The translations under genes and the position numbers were made by a program. The notes below the pieces were generated by a model. It saw only the letters and a program-made list of their open reading frames with translations, did no database searches and was not told the DNA's origin. From a virus, in IMG/VR virus record IMGVR_UViG_3300046820_000060, positions 1 to 33,656 of that record: a stretch of DNA of 33,656 bases. The stretch is one strand, 5' to 3'. Shown in pieces: positions 1,773-19,042 of the stretch (positions are counted from its first letter, which is position 1; the number at the start of each line of letters is the position of its first letter).

Positions 1773-2396
1773 TTATCCAAAAGTCTTTGCACGGGTCAGC
1801 AATGCACCACCAGAAGATGCACTTCGATCATCGGCAGTTTGTGAATCATTCAAGGCCCGCTCATAGAGTGTTGCCCATACTTGAATTCTCGCATCATCTT
1901 GCAGATATGGCGCAGCTTGAAGCAATGCTCCATACAGATAAATGTCAGGGTTTGATGTCAAAAGCCAGTTTGTCGTGTTGCTATTTGATAACTTTGACAA
2001 CTTGGCGTAATAGGTAAGCTCGGTGGTGTAGTTACTGTCTGGTGTTGGGACCAATCTAAACTGACCACCGACAATTCCAAAAAATTTAGGCTTACCGCTG
2101 CCGGTAAATTTGGTCGCTTCATTATCAAGCGCATCAATACTCAAAAATGACAATGGCGTTTGTGGATTTGTGCTGGTCAATTTAAGAGACTTTGTCTCTA
2201 AGAAGTCAGCAGGCACAGCACCATATTGCGCATCAAAAGACGCATTGGCCCTGACAATCATCTGCCTGGTGCGAAGTGTTCTTTCAACTTGCGCCTCGGC
2301 CAAAGAGATAAAGTCAGGAATGACAGCTGTCAGGTCTGATCGGTTGAGCCAGTCACCAATGGATGTCTTTAACTCTGCATAAGTGCTAAGTGCCAT
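1773..2396 (-). CDS. Head-to-tail adaptor protein, SU10 type
   Basis: 207 residues. The N-terminus MALSTYAELKTSIGDWLNR, then IPDFISLAEAQVERTLRTR, PADFLETKSL, Y and P-rich beta strands, and a helical end with LYGALLQAAPYL, is the pattern I associate with the phage adaptor family typified by SU10. This protein forms a ring between the portal and the tail nozzle. A capsid protein of the same SU10 type is encoded upstream, which agrees with this. Shine-Dalgarno GAGG lies 6 bases before the ATG. The start overlaps the end of the glycosyltransferase gene by 11 bases. Confidence 0.75.
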   Translation of the reverse strand: MALSTYAELKTSIGDWLNRSDLTAVIPDFISLAEAQVERTLRTRQMIVRANASFDAQYGAVPADFLETKSLKLTSTNPQTPLSFLSIDALDNEATKFTGSGKPKFFGIVGGQFRLVPTPDSNYTTELTYYAKLSKLSNSNTTNWLLTSNPDIYLYGALLQAAPYLQDDARIQVWATLYERALNDSQTADDRSASSGGALLTRAKTFG

Positions 2397-3048
2397 TTTT
2401 CGCCTCTTTTTCCATCTCTTCTTTCACAATCCAAGTGTGAGGGTGGCCAAACTCAAAAGTGCCAATGTGGCCAATTTCATGCGAAACATCATGGTCGATA
2501 TAAACTTTAAAGCCAAGCTCTCTGGCTTTTTTACAAAAGAAAACATCTTCCCCCATGTAGCCCCGTGTGGTCTGCCACGGCATATCAAACCATGGCTCAG
2601 ACATACCCTCAAACACCTCGCGCTTGATGAGCATTATGCCAGTGCCAATGCTTCCAACCTCTTCCAATCCCTTTGATTCTGGCATGGTGTAAACGGGAAT
2701 GCGCTTGCCGTTTTCGTCATAGTTTTGAGCTGTTGGGCCAGTAGGCATTCTGCGCCTGGCACAGTTGGCAGCCACTATTGGCTTGTCGTGGGCCAAGAGT
2801 CTTCCCACCATATCCTGTGGAAATGTCATGTCCGAGTCAATAAAGAGAATGTGTGTGCAGCCCTCGGCCATCGCATCCAAGCAAAGGTCAGCCCTTTGGT
2901 TTTGGATGATCGTGCCTTGCATCAATTTCAGACTAATTGCGTCTTCAGTGTTGAGTGTGTGATACGCCACAAGGTTAACCATACAGTAACAATAGTTGGT
3001 GTGGACCTGATCACGGGCCGGTGTGCAAACTGCAACGTAATTGCTCAT
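2386..3048 (-). CDS. Glycosyltransferase, GT-A fold (family 2-like)
   Basis: 220 residues. A hydrophobic strand ending in a DSD motif (HILFIDSDMTFP, about residues 67-77) is the metal/nucleotide-sugar binding signature of GT-A glycosyltransferases. It is followed by IVAANCARR, a GTGIMLIKREVF segment and a GEDVFFCKKARELGF acceptor-side motif, then conserved HD/H residues near the end. The length covers the catalytic domain alone, and I see no membrane segment. The start shares an ATGA overlap with the preceding gene. It lies in the head/tail module between capsid and adaptor. It could modify virion proteins, the host surface or DNA; the sequence does not say which. The enzyme class is fairly sure; the substrate is unknown. 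Confidence 0.8.
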   Translation of the reverse strand: MSNYVAVCTPARDQVHTNYCYCMVNLVAYHTLNTEDAISLKLMQGTIIQNQRADLCLDAMAEGCTHILFIDSDMTFPQDMVGRLLAHDKPIVAANCARRRMPTGPTAQNYDENGKRIPVYTMPESKGLEEVGSIGTGIMLIKREVFEGMSEPWFDMPWQTTRGYMGEDVFFCKKARELGFKVYIDHDVSHEIGHIGTFEFGHPHTWIVKEEMEKEAKNGT

Positions 3049-9635: not shown

Positions 9636-11045
9636 TTATGCAACCCTGACAAGGTTTCTGCGCAGGGGCTGAGACCATTTGCTTGAGCCACTGCTGCCGT
9701 ACATCCCAGAGACCGCGTCACTTGCAAATGTCAGCACAAACGCATCAGCCTTGTCTGGGCTTGGCAGGCCGCGCCTCTTAATCTCGTCTTTGCCCTCAAT
9801 GGCAATCTTGCCATTACTGGTGAAACTGTACCGCACTGTGGCCAACTCACTGATCAAGACATCATCCCTTGGCATCTTGCAATCTCTGGCCTCAAGCCAC
9901 GCCCGTGCCTTATACCAAAGCTCTGCCTTGAGATTCCTGTAAGTCCCACCCATGGCTGGTGACTCAGAGACATTAATCCCTCTGGCCGGCAGCCCCAGCT
10001 CCCGCAGCCTGTCCACCACCCCAGCCCCAAGGCCAATGCTATCGACCAATATCTCTTTAGGCTGAGCACTTGGCGCCAGCGCCTGATACTCGGCCACCAC
10101 CGCACCAGTCAATTGCATCAAGTCCAAATTTTTCCATGTCCGAATATTCTCAGTCACCGCATTGCCCTGCCTTTTACAAAGCGCTGACCGGTCACTACCA
10201 AACCGCGCCACATCCAAGCCCCAAATCATGGGCGCGTACTCGCTTGGCGCCACATCCCGATTCAAGGCACTCTCCAGCAAATCCATCGCAATCACTGTGT
10301 CGTCATCACCCTTGGGGAATTCACCTATCACCCGAATCCGGTAGACATTGCTGTCCTCGCCATAGCGCATGGCCATCTCTTTGACATACTCATCCGACAC
10401 CCGTGGCGAGTCCGTACATGCCACTTGGAATGTGGTCCACTCATCACTGAGCCTTGTGTGTGTGTCGTAAAAGAACCCACTACTCCTCACCGGATTCCCA
10501 AGCAGCAGCGTCACAGCGTTATGCCCCGACATCGAGCCAGCCGCAGCCTCAAACACTTGCTCTGGCACACCACTGGCCTCATCAGCCACCAGCATCACAT
10601 TCTCACTGTGAATCCCCTGCAAAGCCTCCGGCTGCTCTGCTCTTGATGTCCTTGCACTTATGAACATCTCCGTTGGCGCAGCATTAAATTCAATCCTCTC
10701 TTGCTTAACTGTCAACAACCCCTGCAAGGGCAAAGGCATCGCATTGATCCACCTCTTCAGCTCCGCAAACATCGCGTCATACAGCTGACTGCTCGTTGGT
10801 GCAGTCACCACCACCTTGACAGGACTCCTGGTCATAAAGTACCAAAGCATGGCCCAGCTGCTGGCCGTACTCTTTCCCACCCCGTGGCCACTTCTCACAG
10901 ATATCTTGCGATCCCCTCTGGCTATCGCCTCCAAAAACTTCACTTGCCACGGGTCAGGGTCAACCCCCAGCACCTCCCGCACAAACAGCACAGGATCAGG
11001 CTGATACCTCTCCACCCACAAAGAAAACACATTGTCTTTACTCAT
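9636..11045 (-). CDS. terL: Terminase large subunit (ATPase and nuclease)
   Basis: 469 residues. The ATPase half has a Walker A motif RSGHGVGKST (residues 51-60), a coupling-type TAPTSSQL motif (81-88) and a Walker B MLVADEA (151-157). The nuclease half has the RNase H-like acidic residues: GLDVARFGSD (276-285, Asp278), LVDSIGLG (333-340, Asp335) and SPDKADA (Asp434). It cuts concatemeric DNA and pumps it through the portal. The length is normal for the family. The start shares an ATGA overlap with a microprotein gene. The small terminase gene lies upstream but is separated from it by an origin-like spacer and five small genes. Confidence 0.96.
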   Translation of the reverse strand: MSKDNVFSLWVERYQPDPVLFVREVLGVDPDPWQVKFLEAIARGDRKISVRSGHGVGKSTASSWAMLWYFMTRSPVKVVVTAPTSSQLYDAMFAELKRWINAMPLPLQGLLTVKQERIEFNAAPTEMFISARTSRAEQPEALQGIHSENVMLVADEASGVPEQVFEAAAGSMSGHNAVTLLLGNPVRSSGFFYDTHTRLSDEWTTFQVACTDSPRVSDEYVKEMAMRYGEDSNVYRIRVIGEFPKGDDDTVIAMDLLESALNRDVAPSEYAPMIWGLDVARFGSDRSALCKRQGNAVTENIRTWKNLDLMQLTGAVVAEYQALAPSAQPKEILVDSIGLGAGVVDRLRELGLPARGINVSESPAMGGTYRNLKAELWYKARAWLEARDCKMPRDDVLISELATVRYSFTSNGKIAIEGKDEIKRRGLPSPDKADAFVLTFASDAVSGMYGSSGSSKWSQPLRRNLVRVA

Positions 11046-11245
11046 GGATGCATCGTCTCATAAATGCGCCACTGCTTCTCAGGCATCGCCCACTTATGCG
11101 CATCAAGCTCATCAATCCGCACCAAGATCAACAAATGCATCGTCATGGCCAAGTCAAAATACCCACCCTCAATCGCCTCCAACATCTTGACCCGCAAGTC
11201 CACAATCACCACCTCAAGATGCAGCGCTATCAATAACTCACTCAT
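11042..11245 (-). CDS. Uncharacterised 67-residue protein
   Basis: Opens MSELLIALHLEVVIVDLRVK and ends MPEKQWRIYETMHP; hydrophobic N-terminal half, mostly helical, no cysteine. No family recognised. It is linked by ATGA overlaps both upstream and to the large terminase gene downstream, so it is very likely translated. It is one of a chain of microproteins between the second DnaA-box cluster and the large terminase gene. Confidence 0.65.
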   Translation of the reverse strand: MSELLIALHLEVVIVDLRVKMLEAIEGGYFDLAMTMHLLILVRIDELDAHKWAMPEKQWRIYETMHP

Positions 11246-11457
11246 TTCATCCCCCTCGCCTGCTTCAGATTCCTTCCCGTCTCACGATCGGTCCAGCACG
11301 ATGCACATATCCATTTGGTGGCACTCATCTCAACCCCACCCTCTGGCGGCTTCTCCTTATTGCACTTGCTGCACAGCTGCAACTTATGCGCATGGCAATT
11401 CCCATTCAGCCTCAAATGATTGTTCACAAAATTACTCTTCATTTCCTTGCCGGACAT
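11242..11457 (-). CDS. Small zinc-ribbon-like protein
   Basis: 71 residues from the chosen ATG, with a GGGGCGGGA stretch just before it; the frame is open 13 codons further. It contains C-S-K-C and C-A-S-C pairs about 24 residues apart (LQLCSKCNKEKPPEGG, then KWICASCWTDRETGR). This is a treble-clef/zinc-ribbon pattern like that of HNH-associated or recombinase-like zinc fingers. An HNH nuclease is possible in principle, because N-x-H and C-H pairs lie before the first Cys pair (NNHLRLNGNCHAHKLQ), but the protein is short. DNA binding is inferred. Confidence 0.65.
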   Translation of the reverse strand: MSGKEMKSNFVNNHLRLNGNCHAHKLQLCSKCNKEKPPEGGVEMSATKWICASCWTDRETGRNLKQARGMK

Positions 11458-11621
11458 TCCCGCCCCTGTTTGCAATCCTGATGACAGGGTGGACACTTCC
11501 TGTCAATAAAATCATATTCATTAATCCACAACCTAGAAACCAGTCCACAGCTCGGACCAGTCTCTTGCGGTAGTGGCGGCTCTTTCTTTTTAAACCAATT
11601 AAATAAATTAAACATATTCAT
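11439..11621 (-). CDS. Cysteine-containing microprotein
   Basis: 60 residues; MNMFNLFNWFKKKEPPLPQ start, GPSCGLVSRLWINEYDF middle, and a C-terminal C-P-P-C ... C ... C cluster (RKCPPCHQDCKQGRECPARK) likely to bind zinc. The start at 11621 is set by an ATGA overlap with the preceding gene. The downstream gene overlaps its end by 19 bases. No known family. The surrounding 11580-11940 DNA is clearly AT-richer than the terminase gene. Confidence 0.6.
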   Translation of the reverse strand: MNMFNLFNWFKKKEPPLPQETGPSCGLVSRLWINEYDFIDRKCPPCHQDCKQGRECPARK

Positions 11622-11971: not shown

Positions 11972-12001
11972 ATTGTGAAGTGTTTTTGCGTTTTATGTCA
12001 A
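11972..12001 (-). promoter_or_regulatory. Possible sigma70-like promoter for the microprotein/terL genes
   Basis: On the minus strand a perfect -35 hexamer TTGACA (12001-11996) is followed after 18 bases by CACAAT (11977-11972), a 4/6 match to the -10 box. It would start transcription just before the gene beginning at 11940. The -10 element is weak. Confidence 0.35.
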
Positions 12002-12248
12002 CTAGTGCAATAGATTTTTAAAAAATTTTTTTTGTAGGTGTTTAGTGCCGCCACAGTCGCCCCCGCCAAACCGGCCACGGGGGGGGGCGCGGCCACCGAC
12101 CGCCAGCCACCACCCAGTTGTCCACAGCCATTTGTCCACTTCTATCCACAGATTCCTGTGCATAACTGCATCAGTAACACCAGAGCATTACTTTTTCTGT
12201 GGATATCTCCAAATCAACTTAACATAATGGTCATTGTATAAAGTGACT

Positions 12249-12264
12249 GAATGCTTCGGTATTC
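12249..12264 (+). terminator. UUCG-tetraloop hairpin (possible weak rightward terminator)
   Basis: GAATGC-TTCG-GTATTC forms a 6-bp stem closed by the very stable C(UUCG)G loop only when read on the plus strand; the G-U pair becomes an A-C mismatch on the minus strand. It is followed by GTTTATT. It lies 2 bases beyond the small terminase stop codon. The T-tract is poor. Confidence 0.3.
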
Positions 12265-12782: not shown

Positions 12783-13143
12783 TCAGATAATCCTCAATTG
12801 TTTTGATTGCTTCAGCAGCTGATCTTGCGACCACTGCCATGTATCCCTTTGCGTTTAACTGCAAATTTACATCACTTTGCTTGCTTGAAACCACACCGGC
12901 CTTGGTCTTCATCTCCACAAACAAGCCATGAAACCCGTTTTTAGGCTCTAGGACGCACAAATCAGGCATCCCTGCCAAAACCCCTTCACTATGCAACCTA
13001 ACGCGCTCTGAAGCCGTTCTATCGCCTCCATTCGGTATCGCTGCAATGATGATGTCCGGATAAAACGCACGGAAGTGTTGCACCACCTTGACCTGGTCAA
13101 TGTGTTCAATGCTTTTCCTTTTGCGTTTTAAGTCAACCACCAT
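12769..13143 (-). CDS. VRR-NUC domain nuclease
   Basis: 124 residues from the ATG at 13143; the open frame extends 41 codons further but overlaps the upstream gene. The start is uncertain because the GAGG before this ATG is too close. PD-(D/E)xK family motifs are visible: AAIPNGG (34-40), a GMPDLCVL strand with the catalytic Asp (58-65) and FVEMKTKAG with Glu and Lys (75-83). The end contains the helix ARSAAEAIKTIEDYLNG. VRR-NUC enzymes resolve or nick DNA structures during replication and recombination. It sits between the replication genes and the packaging genes. Confidence 0.85.
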   Translation of the reverse strand: MVVDLKRKRKSIEHIDQVKVVQHFRAFYPDIIIAAIPNGGDRTASERVRLHSEGVLAGMPDLCVLEPKNGFHGLFVEMKTKAGVVSSKQSDVNLQLNAKGYMAVVARSAAEAIKTIEDYLNGKT

Positions 13144-13442
13144 TCCTCGGATTCTACTGCCGAGGGTTTGGTCTGGAACATGTGGCATCGGTGCTTGACA
13201 TCGGTCGGGAATGCTGCGAGGCCAGTTTTGCTGCACTGGTGTTCGGACCATGTGACAGTTGCCCATCCATTCCTAATCTTTGCCTGGTCAAACATCCACT
13301 GGAGTGGCTTTGCGTTGACCTTCCTGTGCTTTTCCATCTGATCTGCTGGCATGGACTGCTTGATGTCGACCATTTCCGCATTAGCGCAGTTTTGGCAGAA
13401 AACACGCTCATCTTCTACAAACTCTTTAATTGTGGATAACAT
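13128..13442 (-). CDS. Uncharacterised cysteine-rich protein
   Basis: 104 residues. A C-x2-C pair near residue 16 (VFCQNCANAEMVD) and further Cys/His residues (EHQCSKTG, KHRCHMF) suggest a zinc site. No family recognised. The ATG at 13442 lies inside two DnaA boxes, so the first codons (ATG TTA TCC ACA) are part of an origin-like element. The ribosome site is weak (AGAAGAAAG). It overlaps the VRR-NUC gene by 16 bases. It is the first gene after the candidate origin, in the same direction as the prim-pol gene. Confidence 0.65.
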   Translation of the reverse strand: MLSTIKEFVEDERVFCQNCANAEMVDIKQSMPADQMEKHRKVNAKPLQWMFDQAKIRNGWATVTWSEHQCSKTGLAAFPTDVKHRCHMFQTKPSAVESEEWWLT

Positions 13443-13480
13443 GTGGATAACTTTCTTCTATGTTGGACCATCTAATGCTC

Positions 13481-13533
13481 GTTTCTAATACGGAAAGCCC
13501 TTAAGGTTTTTTCCGCCTTTCCGGATTAGAAAC
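13481..13533. repeat. 17-bp-arm inverted repeat
   Basis: The left arm 13481-13497 (GTTTCTAATACGGAAAG) pairs with 13517-13533 with one mismatch, leaving a 19-base loop that itself holds CCTTAAGG. Each arm contains one copy of the 11-bp repeat. It could extrude as a cruciform or fold in RNA. Confidence 0.85.
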
Positions 13534-13563
13534 TCAAGTACCTTCCAAGCCGAGACTGGTCTG

Positions 13564-13596
13564 TGGATAAGTGGGTCTAATGACCCCACTTATCCA
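13564..13596. repeat. Hairpin with TAAT loop carrying a DnaA box
   Basis: The left arm 13564-13577 (TGGATAAGTGGGTC) and right arm 13582-13596 are complementary except for one bulged C, with the four-base loop TAAT. The outer left arm lies within a perfect TTATCCACA box, and the right arm contains a near copy (TTATCCAAC). No T-tract follows on either strand, so it is not a normal terminator. Confidence 0.85.
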
Positions 13597-13613
13597 ACAA
13601 TCCCTGCCATTGT

Positions 13614-13665
13614 CTAATACGGAATTCCGTATTAGTTCCGTATTAGTTCCGCCTTTCCGCATTAG
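13614..13665. repeat. Iteron cluster with a perfect 22-bp palindrome
   Basis: CTAATACGGAA (13614-13624) is followed directly by its reverse complement (13625-13635), giving a perfect 22-bp palindrome. A further direct copy TTCCGTATTAG lies at 13636-13646, and TTCCGCATTAG at 13655-13665. Two more copies lie outside this block at 13485-13495 (inverted) and 13519-13529 (TTCCGGATTAG). A protein dimer binding site is likely. Confidence 0.9.
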
Positions 13666-13670
13666 ACTGG

Positions 13671-15836
13671 TCATGTGAGTCTCACCCAGCCTGACAGTGG
13701 CTCATTTGGTGCAAATCTGGTGAAGATGGCTGTGCCAATGTGCTTGCGTATGTAGCCTGCGTCTGAGCCTTTGACGCTTGAAAATATCTCAGTCCAGTCC
13801 AGTTGGTATGCGTTTTGGAGTTCTTTTGGCACGACTGGCCTACCTGGTCCTCTGCGCATAATGACATCGCCTTTGTCGTTGATGATGGACTGGACCACCA
13901 TGCAGACCTCATCGCACTTGTCTTGGATTCTTTGTTCTTTGGCGCTGTCTTGCATGGACTGCTTGGCGGCCATCCTGTCTTGTTCTGACGACATGGCTGG
14001 GATAGCCACACGGCAAATGATCTCCTGCATGTCGCCATCATTGGTGAGGACTACTTCTGGGAATGTGATGGAGTTGAATTTAATCTCTCTAAATGTTGGC
14101 TCATAGCGCGTCTTGGTGAGCTTGAGGTATCTCTGGTTGTCGTCATCCATGAATAGCACGCCTGTGAGCGTTGCATCGCCTGTGAATGCTGATGCACCAC
14201 GGGCCATGGCATCTGAGTCTTGTCTGGATATGGTTTTGTTGGTATGGGTCAGAATGCACACTGGCGCTTTTTGCTGAATGAATATGGTCTGCTTAATAGC
14301 GGCAATATATGCACCGACTTCAGAGTTGTCATTCTCATTATCAATATCCATGGTGGCGTTTGCCGTGTCCAGAACCAATAATGGCTTGATGTCGTTAACT
14401 GTATGGCGCTCAATATTATGTGCAAGCCTGAGTAAATCTTTGACATTCGACCTTCTGGCATCAATAACCACAAACCAATCGTTGAGGTTATTAATCTGGT
14501 AATGCTTTGAATAAGCAAATAGAGTCCTGATTATCTGGTCACTATCTTCAGTCACGATTATTGATTTGCGTTTGTTCTTTGCATGTATCTCGCATCCGTT
14601 GACAGTAAACCCTGCCATGACCATGCACATGGACAGGACTGCTGTGGTCTTACCGACTCCTGGTTGTCCAGCCAAGATAAAGAAGCTGTGGGCCATGAAT
14701 CCCTCGATGAGGTAATCGATGGGCTTGAGACTGGTCAGGTCAAGGCTTAGTTCTGGCCATGATGGGTCTGGTGTGTCCTGTGTGACTGGTGCATTGATGA
14801 CAGCCGCAAAGTCTTCCACTGCTGATTTTCTTTCGGTCTGCTTAGTTGGTGGCTCATAGCCGCAGTCCTTGGCGTACTTGAAGAGTGTGCCAAGGCCAAC
14901 ACCTTTGCCTTGATGAAAGCTCTTCCAGTGCAGCTCGATGTCTTTTGTACCGGCAAACTTCTGGCCAGCCATAGACCATGTCATCCATGGGCCAAGGCCG
15001 GCCTCACCGAATTCGGTATGCAGCGCTTGGCCAAGCTCAATCCACTGGTCATAGTCACAGTCTGGGGAAATGTGGTGCAAAGCCTTGATAGCACGATCAA
15101 TGTCGCTGTCATCCAGTCTTGAGCCTAATTGGGTGAAGTCAAATGATTGACTCGGTGGTGCTGATGGGGCAGGCTTTGGCTCTTGCAGCTGGTGCTGCTC
15201 AATGATCCCCCAGTCCTTGAGCAAATCGTAGAGGTCTACGGCCTCTTGGAATTCACCGACCAATTGGTTGCCGCTGAGTAACACTGACTTGCCGGCACTG
15301 TTTGGCAGGCCAAATACTTCAAGTTCTTGGCCACCGCCAAGTTTGTACTTGGGCAGCACCTGGTCAGATTCTTTGGGTGGTTGCACCCATAGGAAGACAT
15401 GACGGCCACGGCCTGAGACTGACACCTCGGTCAGCATCTTGTTAGTTTTGACGTACTTGGCCATGCGCTGGATGGCCACATTGGTGGGGCCAGAAGCGTG
15501 CTTCATATCCACATCGAGACAGACCAAATAGTCGCCTGATGCGCTGATGATGGGGCGCTGCTGGACTAGGCCAAGGTATTGGCCAAATGGGCATGACTCC
15601 ATGGCCCAGACATCTTCGGCACTGTAGAGGTCAGATGGGTCGGTATCCCGTGCCACACCTTGGCCGCTTCGCTTGAATGGAATCTTTTTAGAGCCTTGCA
15701 GGGCAAAGGTACAAAAGACAGCATCAGGCGCGACAGAGCCTATCTTGCAGGCCACACTTTGGGACTGCTGGAATACATTGTTTTGGGGTGTTTCAGTTAT
15801 GATTGACACTGAAATTCCTTTAGTTTGGGGTTTCAT
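13671..15836 (-). CDS. Primase-polymerase / helicase fusion protein
   Basis: 721 residues. The N-terminal prim-pol domain shows CLDVD (106-110) and SGRGRHVFLW (141-150), the metal- and nucleotide-binding motifs of archaeo-eukaryotic-type primases. A PriCT-2-like segment follows (about 245-325: IDRAIKALHHISPD ... WIELGQAL ... WKSFHQGKGVGLGTLF). The C-terminal AAA_25/RepA-like ATPase has Walker A AGQPGVGKTT (389-398) and Walker B PLLVLDTAN (484-492). It should prime and unwind DNA at the phage origin. The ATG has an AAGG site 8 bases upstream. It lies between the nuclease gene upstream and the origin-like repeat region downstream. Confidence 0.9.
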   Translation of the reverse strand: MKPQTKGISVSIITETPQNNVFQQSQSVACKIGSVAPDAVFCTFALQGSKKIPFKRSGQGVARDTDPSDLYSAEDVWAMESCPFGQYLGLVQQRPIISASGDYLVCLDVDMKHASGPTNVAIQRMAKYVKTNKMLTEVSVSGRGRHVFLWVQPPKESDQVLPKYKLGGGQELEVFGLPNSAGKSVLLSGNQLVGEFQEAVDLYDLLKDWGIIEQHQLQEPKPAPSAPPSQSFDFTQLGSRLDDSDIDRAIKALHHISPDCDYDQWIELGQALHTEFGEAGLGPWMTWSMAGQKFAGTKDIELHWKSFHQGKGVGLGTLFKYAKDCGYEPPTKQTERKSAVEDFAAVINAPVTQDTPDPSWPELSLDLTSLKPIDYLIEGFMAHSFFILAGQPGVGKTTAVLSMCMVMAGFTVNGCEIHAKNKRKSIIVTEDSDQIIRTLFAYSKHYQINNLNDWFVVIDARRSNVKDLLRLAHNIERHTVNDIKPLLVLDTANATMDIDNENDNSEVGAYIAAIKQTIFIQQKAPVCILTHTNKTISRQDSDAMARGASAFTGDATLTGVLFMDDDNQRYLKLTKTRYEPTFREIKFNSITFPEVVLTNDGDMQEIICRVAIPAMSSEQDRMAAKQSMQDSAKEQRIQDKCDEVCMVVQSIINDKGDVIMRRGPGRPVVPKELQNAYQLDWTEIFSSVKGSDAGYIRKHIGTAIFTRFAPNEPLSGWVRLT

Positions 15837-15858
15837 GTAGTTGCCTTGAGTTGACTTC

Positions 15859-15898
15859 AGACCTGGTAGTGTTTACGCGCTGCCAGGTCTTTTCTTTT
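15859..15898 (+). terminator. Rightward intrinsic terminator upstream of the prim-pol gene
   Basis: AGACCTGG (15859-15866) and CCAGGTCT (15883-15890) form a stem that in plus-strand RNA extends to 14 pairs using G-U wobbles, with the loop UUAC, followed by UUUUCUUUU. On the minus strand the wobbles become A-C mismatches and no T-tract follows. The orientation is therefore plus, opposite to all surrounding genes. Confidence 0.65.
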
Positions 15899-15915
15899 GG
15901 CATGAGGTTTGGATT

Positions 15916-16929
15916 CTATTCCTTGGCCTTTTCTTTGGCCAATGAAGCCGCAGCACTCTTCTCACCAACTAAGTCTTCGGAAACTTCGACCCCGAGTTTT
16001 AAGACAGCACTGGGGGACTTCAGCTCCCACACTTTCAAGTTGTCTTTGAATGCTTCCATGACCAGCTTCTCATCCTTCCAGAATTTGGTCTTGCGGCCTG
16101 CACGCATGGTCCAGCCAGTGATTGCTTGGCCATTGGTCAATTGCTTCTTGGCAGCCGTCTGCACATCCTCGGCCCATGCGGCCACCAGGGCGGCGTTGTC
16201 CAGCATCTCAGGGGTGACAGTGGTGTCAGGCTTGAAATCGTTCCTAGCGACCTCTTGGACCTTCTCACGCATACTTGGGCAGATGGTCTTGGCCTTGCAG
16301 TAGCGGCAGGCATCCACGCTGGGGCTTGTAGGGGCATCTGAGGTCAGCGCCAGCTCGGCTGCGGCTTTCAGGCGCTGGCCATGGTCCAACAATTCTTGAC
16401 CAGTGACTGTCCACTTGCTGTGGCCAACACGGGGCTGAAAGATGTGCATGGTGCAATTGATGCGCTCGGGCGCTTTGAATTGCCTCATGGCGCCAAGTGC
16501 ATAGGTCAGCAGTTGCTTGTTGTCTGTGGCATCCACGGCCACACGGCCAGTCTTAAGGTCAATGACATGCAAGTGGTCGCCATCGACCAGGACAGCGTCA
16601 GCCGTGCCGCCAAGCGCTGGGTGTAGGGACTTGAGACCTTCATCTAGGTTGACCTCAATGAGCTTCTTGCGCGGATTCTCGACCAGAGCATTGATAAAGT
16701 TGGCATAACCTTGGGCCATGGATAGATGGTCGGGGTCTGTATCAACTGGTATCTCAGCACCTCGCAGAATGATTTCAGACAGCTCATGGATTGCTGTGCC
16801 AATGGCAGCCGCCTCGCCTGCTGGCTCATAGGGCATGAGGGATTCGAGTCTGTAGCTGCCTGGGCACTGCATAAATCGGTCGGTGCGGGATGCTGAGAGT
16901 CTGGCGTGTTTACGGGTTTCGTGTTGCAT
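15916..16929 (-). CDS. Cas4/RecB-like PD-(D/E)xK nuclease (DUF2800 type) with Fe-S cluster cysteines
   Basis: 337 residues. The N-terminus SASRTDRFMQCPGSYRLE has the first cluster cysteine (Cys22). GTAIHEL (44-50), GGTADAVLV (107-115, Asp111) and HVIDLKTGR (121-129, Asp124 and Lys126) are the nuclease motifs, followed by the helix KQLLTYALGA. A second cysteine group is ACRYCKAKTICPS (Cys208, Cys211, Cys217). Four cysteines in this layout hold a 4Fe-4S cluster in AddB/Cas4 proteins. Phage DUF2800 proteins cluster with single-strand-binding and helicase genes and probably act as exonucleases in recombination or replication. It has a strong AGGAG ribosome site. The C-terminus is a charged Ala/Lys/Glu helix. 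Confidence 0.9.
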   Translation of the reverse strand: MQHETRKHARLSASRTDRFMQCPGSYRLESLMPYEPAGEAAAIGTAIHELSEIILRGAEIPVDTDPDHLSMAQGYANFINALVENPRKKLIEVNLDEGLKSLHPALGGTADAVLVDGDHLHVIDLKTGRVAVDATDNKQLLTYALGAMRQFKAPERINCTMHIFQPRVGHSKWTVTGQELLDHGQRLKAAAELALTSDAPTSPSVDACRYCKAKTICPSMREKVQEVARNDFKPDTTVTPEMLDNAALVAAWAEDVQTAAKKQLTNGQAITGWTMRAGRKTKFWKDEKLVMEAFKDNLKVWELKSPSAVLKLGVEVSEDLVGEKSAAASLAKEKAKE

Positions 16930-16941
16930 GGTTTCTCCTGG

Positions 16942-18171
16942 TTAAATGATTTGTGAAATGATTTTCTGCTTGGCGATGACTTTGCCAAGAATGGTGTGAT
17001 CCAGTGATGCCCTGACTGTCAGCAAGTAGATCAATGGCTTGATGCCGTTTTTGTTAATGTTTTCGACTCGGCTGCTGGCCTGCTCCAAGGCACTGGTCTG
17101 CCAAGTTGGCTCGACAAAGACAATCGTGTCAGCAGTGGACAGATCAATGCCTTCGCCACATGAGCTGATGTTGCCAATGAAGCACTTGGTCCGACCAGAC
17201 TGGAATGCGTCAATGTTCTTTTGGCGCTGGGCCTTGGGCGTGTCACCCACCACCATGACCGGTTTGTGTTCTTTCAACCCATCAGTCAGCATGGCCACAA
17301 CTTCCTTGTGGTGCGCGAAAACCACCACCGGCTCCTCAGACTTGAGCAAGTCATCGATGAATTCAATGGCCAGTGGGGCTTTGCGAATGCCAGCCTCGCG
17401 CATGATCTCTGACAGACCCTCAAAGGCCAGCAAGGCATTGGGGTTTGCAATCAATGCGTCAGCATCAAAACTTTGCTCGCGTTTGTCCACTGCCAAGTCA
17501 AAGGTGATCAGGCTCACTTGTGGCTCTTTGTAGTCCATGAAGATGTCTTCCTTTTTGCGTCTGAGCATATGGGGCTTGACCAGGGCTTTAAGCTCTGGAA
17601 TGTTGGATGCACCAGACACATCAAGGCCGCCCCATGGTGGACTCCATGCTTTTGCGTATCTGTAAACAAAGTCAAACCAGCCGCCTCTGTAGATGCCAAG
17701 GCCGTGCAGAATCGGCCACAGCTCTGCTGGGCGGTTTGGCACGATAGTGCCGCTAAGTGCAAAGACGTAATCAATCTTCTTCATGGCCAGCATGGCAGCC
17801 TTGGTGCGTTTTGCTTTTGGGTTGGCCAGACGATGCGCTTCATCCAAGACTAGGGTCTTATATCTGTCCACTTGCGTAACACCATATTGCAACACATCGT
17901 AGTTGATGATGGTGATATCTGCTGAGTTTGGCAGTGCCGCATCCTTTTTCCCATTGATCACATACACCGAGACATTGGGCGCTAGTCTTTGAAATGCCGC
18001 CTCCCAGACTGTCTTGGCAATGGCTGGGCAGACGATAAGGGCTGGGAGGTTTTCTAGTGCAGCAGCTGCTGTGGGTAGCGTCTTACCAACACGGGGCTGG
18101 TCGGCCAGTATGGCCCTGCGCCTAGAGAGCAAGAAGAGCTTGGCCTCTTGCTGGTGCGGGAATAACTGCAT
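16942..18171 (-). CDS. SNF2-family (SMARCAL1-like) DNA helicase
   Basis: 409 residues. FPHQQEAK near the N-terminus is the Q-like motif. Walker A is QPRVGKT (25-31). Motif II is LVLDEAHR (107-114). Motif III is ALSGTIVPNRPAELW (138-152). The C-terminal helicase half has PVVVFAHHKEV, GEGIDLSTADTIVFVEPTW and LEQASSRVENINKNG (motif VI). Phage SNF2 proteins of this compact size remodel or anneal forked DNA during replication and recombination. It has a good ribosome site (GAAGGA) and is read from the minus promoter at 18200-18228. It is the first gene of the leftward replication operon. Confidence 0.92.
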   Translation of the reverse strand: MQLFPHQQEAKLFLLSRRRAILADQPRVGKTLPTAAAALENLPALIVCPAIAKTVWEAAFQRLAPNVSVYVINGKKDAALPNSADITIINYDVLQYGVTQVDRYKTLVLDEAHRLANPKAKRTKAAMLAMKKIDYVFALSGTIVPNRPAELWPILHGLGIYRGGWFDFVYRYAKAWSPPWGGLDVSGASNIPELKALVKPHMLRRKKEDIFMDYKEPQVSLITFDLAVDKREQSFDADALIANPNALLAFEGLSEIMREAGIRKAPLAIEFIDDLLKSEEPVVVFAHHKEVVAMLTDGLKEHKPVMVVGDTPKAQRQKNIDAFQSGRTKCFIGNISSCGEGIDLSTADTIVFVEPTWQTSALEQASSRVENINKNGIKPLIYLLTVRASLDHTILGKVIAKQKIISQII

Positions 18172-18199
18172 GATCGTTTCCTTCGTTTAATTTGTTGCG

Positions 18200-18228
18200 A
18201 TCATATATGGATTTGTGCTAAAGTGCAA
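18200..18228 (-). promoter_or_regulatory. Sigma70-like promoter of the leftward replication operon
   Basis: Minus strand: TTGCAC (18228-18223), a 17-base spacer, then TATGAT (18205-18200). Both boxes are near consensus with ideal spacing, and the helicase ATG is about 30 bases downstream. It overlaps the rightward promoter on the other strand, so the two directions may compete. Confidence 0.65.
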
Positions 18229-18240
18229 TTTCTGTTTAAT
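18213..18240 (+). promoter_or_regulatory. Possible sigma70-like promoter of the SSB gene
   Basis: Plus strand: TTGTGC (18213-18218), a 16-base spacer, then TTTAAT (18235-18240). This is a moderate match that would give a leader of about 45 bases containing the CCCTTAA repeats. Confidence 0.45.
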
Positions 18241-18258
18241 CGCAGAAACCGAAGTAAA

Positions 18259-18280
18259 CCCTTAACCCTTAAACCCTTAA
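18259..18280 (+). repeat. Three CCCTTAA repeats in the SSB leader
   Basis: CCCTTAA occurs at 18259-18265, 18266-18272 and 18274-18280, just before the AAAAGGA ribosome site. It may be a protein-binding element on DNA or on the leader RNA. Confidence 0.8.
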
Positions 18281-18292
18281 AAGGAAAAAACC

Positions 18293-18859
18293 ATGACACG
18301 AGTCGTAACCGGTAAAGTTCGCTTTTCTTATTTCTCAGCTTTGACAGCTCGCAAGAATGAGATGAACGGCAAAGAAGAGTTCTCAACACAAGTGCTGGTC
18401 CCAAAGACCGACACCGAAACTGTGAACCAATTGAAAGCGGCAGCCAAGGCTGCATTGACCGCCAAGTTTGGTGACAAGATTCCAAAGACTGTGCGCAATC
18501 CCTTGCGTGATGGCGACACCGAAACCAAGTCTGATGGCTCTCCATTGGGTCCAGAGTATGCGGGTCACTATTTCTTCAACACCAAGTCAACGGCAAAGCC
18601 TGGCGCTGTGGATGCTCATGGCCACGACATCATTGGCAGCCAAGACATTGTCTCTGGTGACTTTGGCCGTGTGAGTTTGAATGCATATGCGTATGACCAG
18701 GCAGGCAACAAGGGTGTGTCGTTTGGCCTGAACAACATCATGCTCTTGGCCAAGGGCGACTCTTTAGGTGGTGCAAAGCCAAGCGCTGCAAGTGACTTTG
18801 GTATTGGTGCTAGTAAGGCAGCGCCAGCTGCTGCCGAATCAGTCGACAGCGACTGGTGA
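18293..18859 (+). CDS. Single-stranded DNA-binding protein (DUF2815 type)
   Basis: 188 residues. Opens MTRVVTGKVRFSYFSALTAR with FSTQVLVPKTD, then NPLRDGD, YAGHYFFNTKS and a DIVSGDFGRVSLNAYAYD beta-rich core, the pattern of the DUF2815 phage SSB family (T7 gp2.5-like OB fold). The C-terminus is Ala-rich and ends in the acidic/aromatic tail ESVDSDW, the usual partner-binding tip of SSBs. It has a good AAGGA ribosome site. It is divergent from the helicase gene and its 3' end overlaps the convergent HTH gene by 21 bases. Partners are likely the prim-pol, the DUF2800 nuclease and the SNF2 helicase. Confidence 0.88.
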   Translation: MTRVVTGKVRFSYFSALTARKNEMNGKEEFSTQVLVPKTDTETVNQLKAAAKAALTAKFGDKIPKTVRNPLRDGDTETKSDGSPLGPEYAGHYFFNTKSTAKPGAVDAHGHDIIGSQDIVSGDFGRVSLNAYAYDQAGNKGVSFGLNNIMLLAKGDSLGGAKPSAASDFGIGASKAAPAAAESVDSDW

Positions 18860-19042
18860 TTTGTCCTCGATCAGTTTATTGAGCGCAATGTTCAATTGAT
18901 TGACTGATGTCCACAAAGGCTCCACAGTTCCAGACAGCCACCGGCTGACTTGGGACTGCTGGATGCCAGCGGCCTCGCACACCGCAGCCATGGTGATCTT
19001 GTGAGCCTTGGCCCTTGCCCTGATTGTGTGAATTGATTCCAT
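18839..19042 (-). CDS. Small HTH (XRE/Cro-like) DNA-binding protein
   Basis: 67 residues. A helix-turn-helix is clear: HKITMAAVCEAAGIQQSQVS followed by RWLSGTVEPLWTSV, the second helix with Q-Q-S-Q-V-S-R-W contacts. It is of the size of a Cro-type repressor with no other domain. It is read leftward and its upstream region also serves the rightward early genes, so it probably controls one or both. No strong ribosome site is seen. The target is unknown; the CTAATTGCGGAA just upstream of its start resembles the origin iterons. Confidence 0.82.
   Translation of the reverse strand: MESIHTIRARAKAHKITMAAVCEAAGIQQSQVSRWLSGTVEPLWTSVNQLNIALNKLIEDKSPVAVD

Follow-up and report, generated by a model that had tools for sequence, protein, structure and literature searches.

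In iteron plasmids such as P1, F, RK2 and pSC101 the origin combines iterons for the initiator with boxes for host DnaA, and small winged-helix Rep proteins recruit host DnaB and primase. The origins of PICIs lie immediately 3' of the initiator gene and contain two iteron sets (PMC6092414). In PICIs and SaPIs the primase and the helicase/initiator are sometimes fused, and the C-terminal domain recognises the iterons (PMC6092414, PMC7581432). The alpha protein of P4 and its cognate site are cited in the same context (PMC6092414), and alpha has a Toprim primase (PMC4234260). ORF904 of pRN1 joins an AEP prim-pol, a helicase and a C-terminal winged helix; its origin lies directly 3' of the gene, and in systems of this type the stem-loop structure is kept while its sequence changes (PMC4234260).

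The stretch of DNA analysed here, called the window, is an IMG/VR phage record of 33,656 bases. Its site A (13443-13670) lies directly past the prim-pol stop codon, in the window and in all readable relatives, and contains two iteron arrays, both of which recall PICIs and SaPIs. In PICIs, however, an AT-rich stretch separates the iteron sets, whereas in the phage this stretch is 48% GC and contains a hairpin with a DnaA box. The phage protein has a helicase part of the AAA_25/RecA-fold kind, and is likened to PICI Rep by working scheme. Furthermore, PICIs are satellites, whereas the window phage has its own portal, head, scaffold and terminase genes and is not one. A working scheme like that of P4 alpha and ori may be proposed for the phage site (PMC4234260), but alpha has a Toprim primase and the phage primase is of the AEP prim-pol kind, with DnaA boxes kept. 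With pRN1 ORF904 the phage shares an AEP prim-pol, a helicase and a predicted C-terminal winged helix, a candidate origin 3' of the gene and a stem-loop conserved in structure; ORF904 differs in its SF3 helicase, large stem-loop and lack of iterons, where the phage has iterons, a short hairpin and DnaA boxes. Iterons and DnaA boxes occur together in the iteron plasmids as well, but the presumed phage initiator carries helicase and primase domains of its own. No published description of this origin was found in the open-access literature searched, which does not prove its absence.

We conclude, with a probability of roughly 0.8, that window positions 13374-13670 are the initiator-binding part of a phage replication origin, served by the C-terminal domain of the prim-pol/helicase and by host DnaA. 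A sequence-only reading of this DNA had proposed an origin combining a phage initiator with host DnaA, and the conserved position and layout in relatives and a switch in GC skew argue for that proposal.

Repeats and boxes at site A and in relatives

The minus strand carries the replication, packaging and virion genes of the window. A glycosyltransferase-like protein (2386-3048; Pfam Anp1, 1.4e-8) is encoded in the midst of the virion genes. Site A fills the gap from the 3' end of prim-pol to the following gene in the same orientation (13128-13442), which encodes a small cysteine-containing protein with no family assigned. The sequence TTATCCACA occurs exactly three times in the whole window, always on the minus strand (shuffled windows: mean 0.18, maximum 2), and exact TTCCGNATTAG occurs seven times (shuffled windows: 0.01 per window). 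All of these sites are confined to 13374-13665 (292 bp), with none elsewhere in the window (Table 1). Two truncated 8-bp units, TTCCGCCT, are conserved in relatives. Read with prim-pol, array 1 consists of 11-8-11-11-inverted-11 bp iterons; the hairpin with its DnaA box follows, then array 2 (11-8-spacer-inverted-11), the tandem DnaA boxes and a single iteron inside the next gene. Two facing iterons form an inverted repeat with 17-bp arms (13481-13497/13517-13533), and 13614-13635 is a perfect 22-bp palindrome. The 12-bp arms of the hairpin lie at 13564-13575/13585-13596, and one of them holds most of DnaA box 1. The DNA between the arrays (13530-13613) is not AT-rich, with 48% GC against 50% for the genome.

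These results bear out the three perfect DnaA boxes and the strong inverted repeats of the sequence-only reading. Its six 11-bp repeats are present too, but the total is seven, the copy at 13374 lying just outside the interval first described. Its list of features was thus right but short: besides the seventh iteron it had missed the two 8-bp units and a cluster of DnaA boxes after terS.

Table 1. Features of the prim-pol gene, site A and site B in window coordinates.
Feature	Position	Strand	Remark
Prim-pol/helicase gene, proposed initiator	13671..15836	-	AEP-type by motif, PriCT-2, AAA_25 (RepA/DnaB-type RecA fold), C-terminal domain
Prim-pol residues 626-721, C-terminal domain predicting iteron class	13674..13961	-	Seven columns with mutual information equal to class entropy; distances separate
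Predicted recognition helix, residues 694-708	13713..13757	-	AlphaFold2 model, pLDDT 86; holds lineage-2 separating column
Iteron 1, array 1	13655..13665	+	Exact TTCCGNATTAG
Truncated 8-bp unit TTCCGCCT, array 1	13647..13654	+	8-bp unit of local iteron class kept in relatives
Iteron 2, array 1	13636..13646	+	Exact TTCCGNATTAG
Iteron 3, array 1	13625..13635	+	Exact TTCCGNATTAG
Inverted iteron closing array 1	13614..13624	-	22-bp palindrome with iteron 3
Hairpin with DnaA box in arm	13562..13600	-	Compensatory changes in both lineages
DnaA box 1 (TTATCCACA)	13562..13570	-	Exact in 71/75 relatives
Iteron, array 2	13519..13529	+	Exact TTCCGNATTAG
Truncated 8-bp unit, array 2	13511..13518	+	Conserved
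Inverted iteron closing array 2	13485..13495	-	Exact TTCCGNATTAG
DnaA box 2, tandem pair	13442..13450	-	Pair at 11-bp spacing in 74/75 relatives, near-exact pattern
DnaA box 3, tandem pair	13431..13439	-	As pair, 74/75 relatives
Iteron inside next gene (13128-13442)	13374..13384	+	Class changes with arrays in most relatives
Site B, second conserved noncoding element after terS, 1.3 kb from site A	11995..12260	.	Conserved in 56 sequences
Site B AT-rich tract	12011-12040		17% GC
Site B GC-rich tract	12041-12116		76% GC
Site B DnaA-like boxes	12118-12126, 12142-12150, 12157-12165, 12198-12206		

The tandem DnaA boxes overlap the start of the next gene. In many relatives that gene starts upstream and the boxes are translated (in L041, for example, as MVQQITQLSTGYPQ...); in the window that upstream frame is interrupted, and the gene starts only at the second DnaA box. 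Rfam and tRNA searches gave no match. The arrays lie upstream of a gene start and some iterons are palindromic, as operators are, so that the prim-pol C-terminus or another protein might use them to repress a VRR-NUC/terminase promoter, with the origin elsewhere. We regard this as decidedly unlikely: a search of site A in the window gave no sigma-70-like promoter (lineage 2 does have TTGACA hexamers there), and operators would leave unexplained the 5-6 full copies plus two 8-bp units, the copy within the gene, the exact DnaA boxes and the skew switch.

A scan with the prim-pol protein gave 80 loci at 73-100% identity, with the region readable in 75; one locus with 100% identity (L003) may be the same phage as the window. 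In all, the site could be read in about 110 relatives of three lineages, and its position and layout beside prim-pol were kept in every one. Position, spacing and DnaA boxes were conserved in register in 75/75 readable close relatives, the boxes lying at closely similar offsets past the prim-pol stop (counts of exact or near-exact boxes, 71 to 75 of 75). Across 18 long relatives, 70/73 exact boxes fell at site A or B, the others being G018:16166 and two unplaced in G016. The DnaA boxes are matches to the consensus.

The iteron sequence, by comparison, varied. TTCCGNATTAG is absent from about half of the close relatives, and another 11-mer occupies the same places. Read with prim-pol, the classes are CTAATNCGGAA (34 phages, including the window), GTAATNCGGTA (8) and GTAAANCGGTA (36). 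Positions 1, 5 and 10 define the class, and copies inside one phage agree there apart from some mosaics: the inverted copy at the end of array 1 has C at position 1 whatever the class, and L035 and L048 are exceptions as well. The copies of a phage change together, in most phages including the one inside the next gene, and unit lengths are kept across classes (11-8-11-11-inverted 11, then 11-8-spacer-inverted 11). The circular record MW202879, with a prim-pol 52% identical, and 32 IMG/VR relatives share this layout but use an unrelated iteron, GTCGGAGATAC, and variants of it. A MAG contig with a 59% identical prim-pol has CTAATACGGTA-type units, again in the same layout; its name, Acidimicrobium, was rejected as a pointer to the host, as it is possibly a mis-binned phage contig. 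The architecture is therefore kept while the recognition sequence varies, the pattern expected where a site and the protein that reads it evolve together. The sequence-only reading had staked its proposal on the repeats standing at this place in close relatives; position, spacing and DnaA boxes held in 75/75 of these, and the layout also in the lineages at 59% and 52%.

Pairing in the hairpin was kept through double substitutions in both lineages, with three such pairs in each; when the partner arm was slid as a control, zero to two double-change pairs were obtained.

Use of the iteron outside the lineage was considered and rejected. Other contigs carry two copies, mostly at 30-bp spacing and perhaps in repetitive coding DNA; they have no relative of the window proteins and no comparable array, and therefore look like chance matches. 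Five unrelated contigs (L083, L106, L119, L120 and L129) have TTCCGNATTAG at exactly 30-bp spacing, perhaps from periodic coding repeats. A 37 kb relative, contig 3300027804_000015 (L209-L210), is classed as linear and is probably a complete genome because it has a 91-bp terminal direct repeat.

The prim-pol/helicase and its match to the iterons

The prim-pol protein matches PHROG DNA polymerase/primase families and Pfam PriCT_2 (1.8e-18) and AAA_25 (2.7e-17). It contains the AEP-like motifs LDVDMK, SGRGRHVFL and QELEVFG, and D108, D110, H146, E171 and E173 are invariant in 32 prim-pol proteins. The Pfam Prim-Pol model gave no hit on it, and the AEP assignment draws on the motifs and PHROG names; no match to a Toprim (DnaG-like) primase was found in the protein. 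With AEP motifs, PriCT-2 and a RecA-fold helicase in one chain, the protein is, as judged from its sequence, an AEP prim-pol/RepA-type helicase fusion. The replication genes (13671-18859) also encode a PD-(D/E)XK exonuclease, an SNF2-type helicase and, on the plus strand (18293-18859), an Enc34/Gp2.5-like ssDNA-binding protein. No replicative DNA polymerase was recognised among the scanned proteins of these genes, a subset of the ORFs, and prim-pol may be the sole polymerase of the phage.

The C-terminal domain has no convincing family in PHROG or Pfam and no match in a PDB sequence search; a 36-residue stretch matched only PPR proteins in the PDB, which was judged spurious. In an AlphaFold2 model of the domain (pLDDT 86) the elements follow one another as helix-strand-strand-helix-helix-strand, as they should in a winged helix. 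Its best VIA matches include winged-helix chains (CUL4B, Cdt1, MukE and CodY), all weak (Z at most 4.6), and Foldseek returned no significant hit for the model. A winged-helix fold is likely from this model, not established. The model of the whole protein was discarded (pLDDT 51).

Mutual information (MI) between iteron class and alignment columns was calculated for eight proteins: prim-pol, the exonuclease, the SNF2-type helicase, the gene next to the array, VRR-NUC, terS, terL and the HTH protein. Columns that fully predict iteron class were found in prim-pol only, all within residues 626-713. For the helicase, exonuclease, VRR-NUC, terS, terL and HTH proteins the maximum was 0.43, out of 1.34-1.39 bits; the gene beside the array gave a partial signal of 1.07 that fell to 0.36 within about 40 codons. 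The correlation of iteron distance with protein distance was 0.97 for residues 626-721, 0.83-0.89 for 341-625 and about 0 for 1-340, and among the segments compared only 626-721 had every between-class distance larger than every within-class distance. Natural chimeras were also found. In the GTT class two prim-pol bodies (residues 561-625, 53-61% identical) share residues 626-721 at 95-97%, and one phage (L052) joins a diverged body (residues 1-300, 54-70%) to a CTA-type C-terminus and CTA iterons.

Lineage 2 was tested separately. One of 735 columns splits its two iteron subclasses in 32/32 proteins; this is residue 707 (window residue 700 by alignment), inside the predicted recognition helix. 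Between the codon of residue 707 and the array no position exceeded 0.68 of 0.93 bits. Full separation of the classes was also seen at the third position of codon 669. The best tree needs seven class switches, but only two independent ones rest on well-supported branches, and for that reason a sign test cannot reach significance.

These findings point to the C-terminal ~95 residues of prim-pol as the part that would recognise the iterons. The sequence-only reading had offered prim-pol or the HTH protein as initiator. Its first candidate is favoured by the C-terminal domain that predicts class, and the second is disfavoured: the HTH protein (18839-19042) belongs to a family found in all relatives searched, but its sequence does not track the iteron class (MI no higher than 0.43 of 1.36 bits). 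The arrays lie next to the prim-pol C-terminus, and part of the association may therefore be physical linkage. Iteron class might even follow the C-terminus entirely by neighbourhood, as one inherited block, with another protein or DnaA alone recognising the site. The two sequences do lie within about 50-600 bp, the correlation in lineage 1 reaches residue 341, and in lineage 2 codon 669 shows full association at its third position and well-supported switches are few. We nevertheless think this unlikely: in the gene on the other side, which is just as close, the signal is lost within about 40 codons, the lineage-2 association is complete at residue 707 and weaker at all positions nearer the array, and C-terminal similarity ranks as iteron similarity does.

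GC skew, site B and proposed initiation

Four-fold GC skew was strongly negative in the co-oriented genes before site A (helicase -0.34, exonuclease -0.41, prim-pol -0.40), weak between sites A and B (VRR-NUC -0.05, terS -0.15) and positive past B (terL +0.31). In 1-kb bins aligned on site A and read on the prim-pol strand (nine genomes, sd about 0.02), skew switched from -0.014 just before the site to +0.095 just after. On the plus strand the terL region of the window (10001-11500) has a GC skew of about -0.35, the steepest in the window. The switch agrees with an origin at A-B that may have two start points, and transcription could contribute to it.

Site B contains at least one exact TTATCCACA in 47/56 sequences, and an exact inverted pair 56 bp apart in 34/56. 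Its boxes are degenerate in the window itself, and relatives mostly carry exact ones. It may be a second part of the origin or a packaging site. One possible arrangement, which we think somewhat unlikely, is that site A binds the initiator and DnaA while opening and forks occur at site B, the two being parts of one origin or sending a leftward fork from A and a rightward fork from B. The conservation of site B (at least three DnaA-like boxes in 56/56, the AT tract in 53/56) and the two steps of the four-fold skew, at A and at B with values near zero between, are in its favour, and P4 requires a second cis site for replication. Against it, site B showed no iterons, its window boxes are degenerate, and a packaging site would be expected at just such a position beside the terminase genes.

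A role of site A or B in packaging (cos/pac) or partition is very improbable. They flank the VRR-NUC and terS genes, and the GC-rich run of site B is of a kind common at cos sites; the contigs of relatives, however, do not visibly tend to start or end at A or B, and no role in packaging is known for DnaA boxes or initiator-matched iterons.

For the origin at 13374-13670 we infer the following order of events. The winged-helix-like C-terminal domain of the neighbouring prim-pol/helicase would bind the 11-bp iterons of the two arrays, and host DnaA would bind the hairpin box and the tandem boxes. Together they would open the DNA, either within the hairpin and arrays or 1.3 kb away, in the AT-rich tract of site B; the RecA-fold helicase ring would then be loaded on the opened DNA and the prim-pol domain would prime. 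Two points run counter to this. It is not obvious what a phage that encodes a helicase and a primase would need DnaA for, and the skew steps again at site B. A bolder scheme, which we consider doubtful, is a dual-initiator origin in which a prim-pol/helicase with an exchangeable C-terminal domain and host DnaA act at A and B, with a leftward fork from A and a rightward fork from B; iteron and domain would be swapped as a cassette, giving mutually blind replicons among near-identical phages.

Finding a phage origin from sequence is difficult, and natural variation seldom exposes the recognition code of an initiator. At the site described here, over 100 phages provide at least four iteron classes, with initiator tails to match, natural chimeras included. 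These natural classes and chimeras make a protein-DNA specificity code directly testable. They also prompt one to ask why host DnaA boxes are so consistently retained in a phage that encodes its own helicase and primase.
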